Source of the DNA: Minisyncoccota bacterium
GTDB taxonomy: Bacteria; Patescibacteriota; Microgenomatia; UBA1400; PJMF01
NCBI GenBank assembly: GCA_029881675.1
Contig: JAOUMD010000007.1
Coordinates: 1 to 41,635, forward strand
Length of the DNA: 41,635 nt
Direction: 5' to 3'
In this document: one piece after another, positions 6,800-10,415 of the stretch
Layout: every line of letters starts with the position of its first letter
Position numbering within the stretch: position 1 is the first letter of the stretch
The notes under the pieces: model-generated
Told to the model about the DNA's origin: nothing
The model's database searches: none
The model's input: only the letters and a program-made list of their open reading frames with translations
Translations under genes and position numbers: made by a program

Positions 6800-8035
6800 A
6801 TGAGAAGATTCCACAAAATAGCACTTACGCTTTGTTTTTCTCTAGTTATATTCTTTAGTTCAAATATTTTAGTTAATGCTGTTGCTAATTGTGATGATAT
6901 TAGTTGTAACAAGGATGATGATGGTACATATTTACGTTGTATTGAAGAAAAAACATCTTGTTGGGTAGAAAAGATAGAAGAAGCTCAATCATCAGCTATT
7001 ACTCTAAAAAGCACTATTAATATTCTCAATGGACAAATTAATGTTCTTCAACTTCAAATAGATCAGAGTCTTTCTGAGATTACTTCCTTAGAAAAAGAAA
7101 TTATTGAGTTAACAGACAGAATTGAAGGGCTTAACTATTCTTTAGATAAGTTAACCAGTGTCTTGGTAGAAAGAGTAGCAGAACAATACAAGAGGACTTA
7201 CACTAATCCCATCTTAGTATTTTTCTCTAAAACTAGGTTTGCTACAAAATTATCAGAGTTTAAATATCTTAAGCTAGCAGGTCAACAAACAGTCGATGCA
7301 ATGGAGAGAGCAGAAAGCCAAAAGATTACTTATGATGAGCAAAAATTACTTAAGAAACAAAAGCAGGAGGAACTTGAGTCAAAGAGAATTCAATTGGAGG
7401 GACAAAAGAGTCAGCTAGCTGGAAAGAGAGCTGCAGAACAAAATCTTTTGACTGAAACAAAGAATAATGAGGCTATTTTTCAACAAAAGTTAGCTGAGGC
7501 TAAAGCAGAGTTCCAAGCTATTCAGGCTATTATTGCTGGAAGAGGTCAGGAAACAGAGGTTGGCCATGTTAATGAGGGAGATAAAATAGCTACAGTAATT
7601 CAAGGACAATCATGTAACTCCAGTGGAACACATGTCCACTTAATAATTTCAGATTTTGGAGTAGTTAAAAATCCATTTAATTATCTTAAATCAGGTATAG
7701 ATTATCAAAATTGTTCCGGTTCTAGCTGTGGTAGTAGCGATGGAGACTCATTTAATCCATCTGGATCTTGGGATTGGCCTATTTCAGCTACAGTTCAATT
7801 ATGGCAAGGATATGGAAGTACTTGGGCGACCCGCAATACTTGGGTCAGTCGTATCTATAGCTCTCATAATGGAATTGATATCAGAAGTTTAGGCTCAAGC
7901 ACTGTGACGACAATGCAGTCTGGTACCTTATATCAAGGAAGCTTTACAGGTTCTGGTTCATGTCGTTTAAGGTATGTCAGAGTAGCTCATGATGATAGTG
8001 AAATAAGTTCTTTTTACTTGCATATTAATTATTAA
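6800..8035 (+). CDS. Secreted coiled-coil peptidoglycan hydrolase (PcsB/EnvC-like) with apparently permuted M23/LytM domain
   Basis: Signal peptide, coiled coil, GTHVHLII (HxH) block followed later by SHNGIDI (HxxxD) and SFYLHINY blocks; third gene after ftsE-ftsX. Confidence 0.85.
   Translation: MRRFHKIALTLCFSLVIFFSSNILVNAVANCDDISCNKDDDGTYLRCIEEKTSCWVEKIEEAQSSAITLKSTINILNGQINVLQLQIDQSLSEITSLEKEIIELTDRIEGLNYSLDKLTSVLVERVAEQYKRTYTNPILVFFSKTRFATKLSEFKYLKLAGQQTVDAMERAESQKITYDEQKLLKKQKQEELESKRIQLEGQKSQLAGKRAAEQNLLTETKNNEAIFQQKLAEAKAEFQAIQAIIAGRGQETEVGHVNEGDKIATVIQGQSCNSSGTHVHLIISDFGVVKNPFNYLKSGIDYQNCSGSSCGSSDGDSFNPSGSWDWPISATVQLWQGYGSTWATRNTWVSRIYSSHNGIDIRSLGSSTVTTMQSGTLYQGSFTGSGSCRLRYVRVAHDDSEISSFYLHINY
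7973..8033 (+). repeat. 61-bp direct repeat, copy 1 (3' end of the hydrolase gene)
   Basis: Identical to 8609-8669 by base-by-base comparison (tatgtcagagtagctcatgatgatagtgaaataagttctttttacttgcatattaattatt). Confidence 0.97.
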
Positions 8036-8079
8036 CACTAATTAATCTTAATGAAAGATTACTGTAATAAACTGTATGG

Positions 8080-8493
8080 GTGTTAATAACAGTTGCCCCA
8101 CAAAATATTTATAAAACTAAAGTAATACCTTTAAAGGGCTCTGTTTATAAAAGAGTTTATAAGTCAGCTTTATCTTATTACCAAATTATTAAATCAAGAA
8201 CTAAGCGTAAACCATATACAAGGTCTACTTATTTTAAGAAGAAAATTTTTCTTGATATTTTTTGGTCACACTTATTTGATAAAGGAAGAAAGATTAGAAC
8301 ACAAAGGTTAAAATTACTACCTTGTGCCATTGAGTTATTGGAAAGAACAACTTGCTCTCCAGAGATAATAAAGTCAGAAAAGTTTAAAAGAGAGACTTTT
8401 TATCGTTTTACTGGGCAAACTGAATCAGGTCAATTATTTATAGTTCAGGTTAAAAAGAGAAATAACCATCTTTATTTCATCTCAGTATACTAA
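8080..8493 (+). CDS. Small basic protein of unknown function carried between the 61-bp repeats
   Basis: GTG-start ORF, 137 aa: ...IFLDIFWSHLFDKGRKIRTQRLKLLPCAIELL...FYRFTGQTESGQLFIVQVKKRNNHLYFISVY. Confidence 0.7.
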   Translation: MLITVAPQNIYKTKVIPLKGSVYKRVYKSALSYYQIIKSRTKRKPYTRSTYFKKKIFLDIFWSHLFDKGRKIRTQRLKLLPCAIELLERTTCSPEIIKSEKFKRETFYRFTGQTESGQLFIVQVKKRNNHLYFISVY

Positions 8494-8501
8494 AACAAAA
8501 A

Positions 8502-8544
8502 AAGTCTTTGGCGGTGTAGGGCGAAACCATACGGCTAAAGACTT
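8502..8544. repeat. Stem-loop downstream of the cassette ORF
   Basis: AAGTCTTTGGC ... GCTAAAGACTT arms (8 Watson-Crick pairs, one G-T, then GC/GC), inner GTGT/ATAC and GG/CC pairs around gcgaaa. Confidence 0.8.
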
Positions 8545-8608
8545 GATTCTGTCTGTAATATAGTACTTTTTGTATCACTAGTCAATTATTAGTTTTGATT
8601 TGTTTTAT

Positions 8609-8669
8609 TATGTCAGAGTAGCTCATGATGATAGTGAAATAAGTTCTTTTTACTTGCATATTAATTATT
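8609..8669 (+). repeat. 61-bp direct repeat, copy 2
   Basis: Identical to 7973-8033; still reads YVRVAHDDSEISSFYLHINY followed by a stop (TGA instead of TAA). Confidence 0.97.
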
Positions 8670-10361: not shown

Positions 10362-10415
10362 GTTCTGACTGGTTTTGGGTTAATCAATATTGGTTAATCT
10401 CAGACCAGTCAGAAC
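10362..10415. repeat. 12-bp perfect inverted repeat with internal GGTTAATC direct repeats
   Basis: GTTCTGACTGGT (10362-10373) and ACCAGTCAGAAC (10404-10415). Confidence 0.92.

Follow-up and report, generated by a model that had tools for sequence, protein, structure and literature searches.

The 575-bp insert at positions 8034-8608 of the window (the whole stretch of 41,635 nucleotides that was analysed) is one member of a family of mobile cassettes that was previously undescribed and unnamed. All intact copies examined have a common plan, in which a basic ORF of about 135 residues is followed by a sigma-70 promoter on the opposite strand, predicted to drive a structured RNA of about 57 nt that is read back toward the ORF. 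On balance, we consider it moderately probable that the cassette is a small mobile module made up of a toxin and an RNA antitoxin.

In the window, the limits of the insert are given by a direct repeat and by comparison with G001, a genome of the same genus. The earlier note had claimed a perfect 61-bp repeat around 575 bp, and on re-measurement positions 7973-8033 and 8609-8669 (both plus strand) were identical at 61/61 positions. The two copies start 636 bp apart, so that the enclosed insert is 575 bp, and the chance expectation for a 61-bp repeat of such kind within the window is about 1e-25. Copy 1 corresponds, as had been noted, to the last 20 codons of the target gene, a 411-residue M23-like hydrolase (6800-8035, plus strand) that lies downstream of ftsE/ftsX-like genes, and beyond copy 2 the ancestral intergenic region resumes with the promoter of the next gene, as judged from the gene order of G001, where the insert is absent. 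The stop codons that were said to end both copies, TAA for copy 1 and TGA for copy 2, are indeed present but lie just outside the repeat and not within it. Both copies carry the natural gene end, because hydrolase homologues of relatives terminate at the equivalent residue. Neither the repeat nor the insert occurs a second time in its own genome (a 1.08-Mb draft of 44 contigs). The description of the insert as one ORF and one hairpin with no recombinase also held: it has a single ORF, and Pfam and other family searches of it gave no recombinase or transposase family.

The hydrolase itself looks circularly permuted, with the C-terminal-half motif VNEGDKIATVIQ...THVHLII placed ahead of the N-terminal half, and its Pfam match covers model positions 2-53 of 96 only, at the end of the protein, an end point common to relatives. 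Elsewhere in the window, between two genes at 10362-10415, there is a strong 27-nt inverted repeat (81% complementary) with zero spacer.

The source contig comes from a draft assembly of many contigs, a circumstance in which a perfect repeat might be produced by misassembly. We find this scarcely credible, as the insert shows the complete anatomy of a family known from dozens of independent assemblies, and its flanks on either side are in ancestral order.

A search of related genomes for the ORF family and the hairpin, as had been proposed, returned further copies in many of them. Relatives of the ORF were present in 5 of 138 near genomes, in 29 of 380 genomes of a phylum sample (about 8%), and in 36 of 353 genomes of one class, where the maximum per genome was five matches; they were also found at 31 GTDB loci (the query genomes are included in each of these counts). 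The distribution across Patescibacteria is patchy, and several relatives assigned to the taxonomic family of the window carry the GTDB labels Patescibacteria or Paceibacterota. No family member was observed in the viral contigs, phages or plasmids searched. L057, L064 and L065 are family members whose contigs bear the labels Coriobacteriales, Clostridiales and Chlamydiae; these may reflect real transfers, or Patescibacteria contigs that were binned wrongly. Family members elsewhere are about 517-630 bp long, and their neighbour genes differ widely between loci, and of the 71 loci where the upstream gene is clear, 46 have it reading in the direction of the ORF. Three cassettes of a single genus lie directly 3' of a reverse transcriptase gene or what remains of one (L191 98-1138, L184 1583-2113, and upstream in L185).

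The cassette moves to new sites, as is shown by reciprocal filled and empty sites in two genomes of one genus and by an empty site at the window locus. In G281, a cassette separates mreB from a NUDIX-type gene, and the corresponding gap in G301 is about 24 bp (the mreB genes are 93% identical); in G301, a cassette lies between ftsW and murG, which overlap in G281 (all of these genes are named from their sequences). Between the two cassettes the identity is 79%, and the likeness ends at the cassette boundaries. In G001, the hydrolase, a short intergenic promoter and the next gene follow in the same order as in the window with the insert absent, and there is no family member anywhere in that genome. 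A comparison of empty with filled sites had been suggested, and the proposal of a mini mobile element that carries no recombinase is borne out by these empty sites together with the other copies of the ORF and hairpin. Such an element may be mobilised in trans, as was also proposed. Two further pairs were considered as proof of mobility and dropped: L162/L179 (90% identical), because the reverse transcriptase gene upstream is common to both, and L088/L104, because the upstream genes are homologous.

The origin of the 61-bp repeat is a separate matter. It had been likened to an att-like sequence by which a site-specific integrative mini-element restores the 3' end of its target, and a perfect repeat at a gene end that leaves both ends intact does have that appearance. 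Such a reading is nevertheless very improbable. The insert lacks a recombinase and the 61 bp occur nowhere else in the genome; members are found beside many different genes, the flanking repeat at the mreB and ftsW insertions is either none or a few bp, most of 86 loci have none, and where flanking repeats do occur they are not conserved among copies or sites, as an att sequence would be. A target duplication of fixed length does not fit either, given 61 bp in the window and at most a few bp at mreB and ftsW. Flanking repeats scoring at least 13 were observed at 9 of the 86 loci, compared with 0.5 expected by chance. A general rule of target-site duplication was not accepted, however, in view of the repeats at three loci: the 22-bp flanking repeat of L007 is a promoter-like motif that recurs in its genome, and those of L099 and L085 lie in clade-typical upstream regions. 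The sequence TTTTCCTACAGTT, present at several sites of one genome (L007 1422 and 2014; L036 267 and 1252), is probably a host promoter motif. Since long flanking repeats are no rule and are absent at mreB and ftsW, the repeat in the window is best read as a duplication that was probably made as the cassette inserted at the stop codon, leaving both gene ends intact.

The ORF of the window (8080-8493, plus strand) starts with GTG and encodes 137 residues. Searches against Pfam, PHROGs, NCBIfam, PADLOC and PDB sequences gave no convincing match, and no sequence family in these databases connects it to any known toxin. The ORF is under purifying selection, as shown by dN/dS values of 0.05-0.2 in the pairs for which these were computable. 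The family has a mean pI of 10.2, and in an alignment of 53 members S49, K55, F57, W62, H64, R76 and F110 are invariant.

AlphaFold models of the window ORF (pLDDT 94.1) and of a second member (pLDDT 96.2) have the same topology, N-terminal helices followed by a four-stranded meander. Such a topology is that of a BECR-fold RNase. PBECR and colicin D RNases have a histidine in the helical part and a serine or threonine in strand 4 (PMC5512222), a configuration described for the BECR fold as well (PMC3482391). Residues of both kinds are present in the ORF family: H64, in helix 59-65, is found in 53/53 sequences, and S135, in strand 130-136, is serine in 52/53 and threonine in 1/53. Structure searches gave weak matches to polyvalent and MuF proteins of viruses (E between 5e-3 and 5e-2). 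With the second model, the RelE and HigB toxins were among the top solved structures, also weakly (E 0.28-0.57); there were zero matches to known members at E 0.001 or better. From these models we predict that the ORF product is likely a BECR-fold RNase of a family not described before. It would share with colicin D, RelE and the C-terminal domain of MuF proteins the helix and four-stranded meander, the helical histidine and the Ser/Thr of strand 4; it differs from the PBECR/BECR RNases in having no family HMM match, in standing alone with an RNA of its own, and in a conserved basic N-terminal region (R43, R48, S49 and K55).

A different function for the ORF product would be that of an atypical DNA-mobility enzyme, with the convergent RNA as an antisense brake or a ribonucleoprotein partner in the manner of RNA-OUT of IS10. 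The ORF is, after all, the sole gene of a cassette whose movement is demonstrated, it evolves under purifying selection, and a dedicated RNA opposes it. We regard this as rather unlikely, as the 53-member alignment has no conserved acidic triad and the conserved residues of the family (K, R, H, S and aromatics) include no HUH-like signature; moreover, the cassette ends and target duplications are inconsistent, and the internal loops of the RNA are conserved beyond the needs of pairing.

A conserved hairpin lies directly 3' of the family ORFs, and several features identify it as part of an oppositely transcribed RNA. In 61 copies, a sigma-70 promoter is positioned on the opposite strand about 59 nt beyond the ORF stop, with a score of at least 10 in 87% of them; the figure is 6.6% for shuffled sequences and 9.8% for the plus strand. 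The predicted minus-strand transcript is about 57 nt long and its terminal U-run falls at the ORF stop codon. When the stem pairs of 70 hairpins were read as minus-strand RNA, there were 86 G-U pairs and 4 A-C pairs, by a parsing score that weighs G-T and A-C equally. The lower stem is paired at 97.8% of positions as opposed to 84.7% after column shuffles, and the upper stem has two pairs that each show double changes in 21 of 44 sequences. When RNAalifold was run on the MAFFT alignment it recovered the upper stem only, because the lower stem was aligned one column off in about half of the rows, and the lower stem was therefore parsed by a script. These patterns show the stem to be evolving as RNA of the minus strand, which also folds more strongly than the plus strand in 83 of 90 loci. 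Rfam contains no family that matches this RNA.

A role of the hairpin as a structure of the DNA ends is accordingly not supported. Such a role would have made the cassette an element of REP/RAYT or IS200/IS605 type with the hairpin as the transposition substrate, for which a conserved bulged hairpin adjoining a small ORF, and the occurrence of lone hairpins, could be cited. Such an element is largely refuted and extremely unlikely, given the strong G-U bias of one strand with a well-placed promoter on that same strand, the absence of an HUH protein, and the small number of orphan hairpins per genome.

Conservation extends to unpaired parts of the RNA, namely a G.G mismatch (63 of 70 hairpins), a bulge that is usually 3-5 nt long, and a UUUAUA loop. 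This exceeds what a terminator or an antisense RNA would need and is as expected of an RNA bound by a protein. At several loci, two or three hairpin RNA copies lie near one ORF, reminiscent of the repeated antitoxins of type III systems (L042 5588-5644; L090 1354-1409 and 1442-1497; L196 1854-2551; L091 1403 and 1905; L088 1332 and 1922). In one clade, L042, L043, L105, L162 and L179 have a palindrome, ATGGCTA-n-AAGCCAT, just 5' of a promoter upstream of the ORF, and since transcription from this promoter would begin at or near the ATG, the arrangement is suggestive of an operator and a leaderless mRNA.

In the window, the RNA, a predicted antitoxin, is encoded on the minus strand at 8495-8549 with its U-run abutting the ORF stop codon, and the hairpin proper is at about 8502-8544. 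Its promoter has a -10 box TATATT (8557-8562, minus strand) separated by a 17-nt spacer from a -35 box TTGACT (8580-8585, minus strand). The copy is divergent: its match to the RNA model scores 30.2 bits (E 1.1e-5), where typical copies score about 60 bits, and it is an exception to the strand rule in that its minus-strand fold is the weaker one. With a degenerate RNA and a weaker fold, the window copy may therefore be decaying and losing function.

A hairpin accompanies every intact ORF inspected, some of the hairpins being divergent, and several ORFs are broken by internal stops with the RNA retained. A search of 30 genomes with the RNA model gave 37 hits, with none in 13 genomes and one orphan hit in a genome that had no ORF match; orphans are few in any one genome. 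Nine hits were away from intact ORFs: three of these adjoin ORF remnants, one is upstream of an intact element, four have no detectable remnant and one is at a contig end. Loss of the toxin with retention of the antitoxin is the direction expected for a toxin-antitoxin pair, and general decay of an element could look similar.

It is conceivable that the protein and the RNA form a non-toxic regulatory pair, an RNA-binding protein and its sRNA carried as mobile cargo, since both parts are strongly conserved and the fold assignment is weak. We consider this unlikely, if not strongly so, because an RNA that outlives its ORF and an ORF that is frequently disrupted suit the loss of a toxin better, and because the conserved His and Ser are at catalytic positions. 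Decidedly improbable, in our estimate, is a ribonucleoprotein of the protein and hairpin RNA that is responsible for its own insertion at the ends of genes, the flanking duplications being scars of repair; if true, RNA-dependent mini mobile elements of this sort would form a new class.

For the toxin and RNA-antitoxin module that we favour, the following course of events may be envisaged. The ORF would encode a basic, metal-independent BECR-fold RNase, expressed at a lower level from upstream host transcription or, in some clades, from its own promoter, while the strong separate promoter on the opposite strand would supply the short structured RNA, whose end falls at the stop codon of the ORF. 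By binding the RNase, the RNA would keep it inactive, which is how RNA antitoxins act in type III systems; we infer the toxicity, the RNase activity and this neutralisation alike. The cassette would spread by insertion at gene ends and between genes of operons, leaving genes unbroken, and addiction would then retain it at the site. In the window, the insertion would have taken place at the stop codon of a gene for a cell-wall hydrolase, 61 bp of the gene end being duplicated meanwhile.

Patescibacteria genomes are very small, yet about 8% of the sampled ones hold the cassette, and some have five copies. Should it prove to be a toxin and its RNA antitoxin, it would represent an RNA-antitoxin system of unrelated parts in a new gene arrangement, and one that is common in a vast branch of the bacterial tree where little has been tested. 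It is also a concrete and very small element for asking how an addiction module that has no recombinase moves between essential genes. Our survey of the literature found no toxin-antitoxin or small-RNA element of such kind in Patescibacteria.

Known systems resemble the cassette in different respects. In type I toxin-antitoxin pairs, a convergent small RNA overlaps the 3' side of the toxin gene, and the toxins are mostly short hydrophobic peptides; the cassette ORF in contrast encodes a conserved basic protein whose conserved residues resemble those of an enzyme, and unpaired bases of its RNA are conserved as well. IS10 is a mobile element with one ORF and a small RNA that opposes it, RNA-OUT, which covers the 5' end of the transposase mRNA. 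The cassette is likewise mobile, with a single ORF and an opposing small RNA, and neither the DDE transposase nor the terminal inverted repeats of IS10 were found in it. In the AbiF/RCd22 system of Clostridioides difficile, a toxic protein is neutralised by an associated structured RNA that has a promoter and a terminator of its own (PMC12373285), a logic similar to that of a protein with an associated RNA driven by its own promoter in the cassette, although AbiF is an Abi_2/Cas13-like protein unrelated to the ORF and RCd22 lies upstream on the same strand with two motifs. Type III systems are defined by a toxin paired with an RNA antitoxin (PMC8860590), and in ToxIN, CptIN and TenpIN these are a small endoribonuclease-type toxin and a structured noncoding RNA that should bind the toxin, as is predicted here. 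By membership the cassette is not type III, as protein, RNA and layout all differ: the ORF belongs to no Pfam, NCBIfam or PADLOC family that would make it a ToxN/AbiQ protein, and the type III RNA is an upstream tandem-repeat pseudoknot co-transcribed with the toxin, whereas the cassette RNA is downstream and convergent, read from a promoter of its own on the opposite strand, and in single copy in most loci. The best reading by analogy would thus be a module that is type-III-like in its logic, with unrelated parts in a new arrangement.
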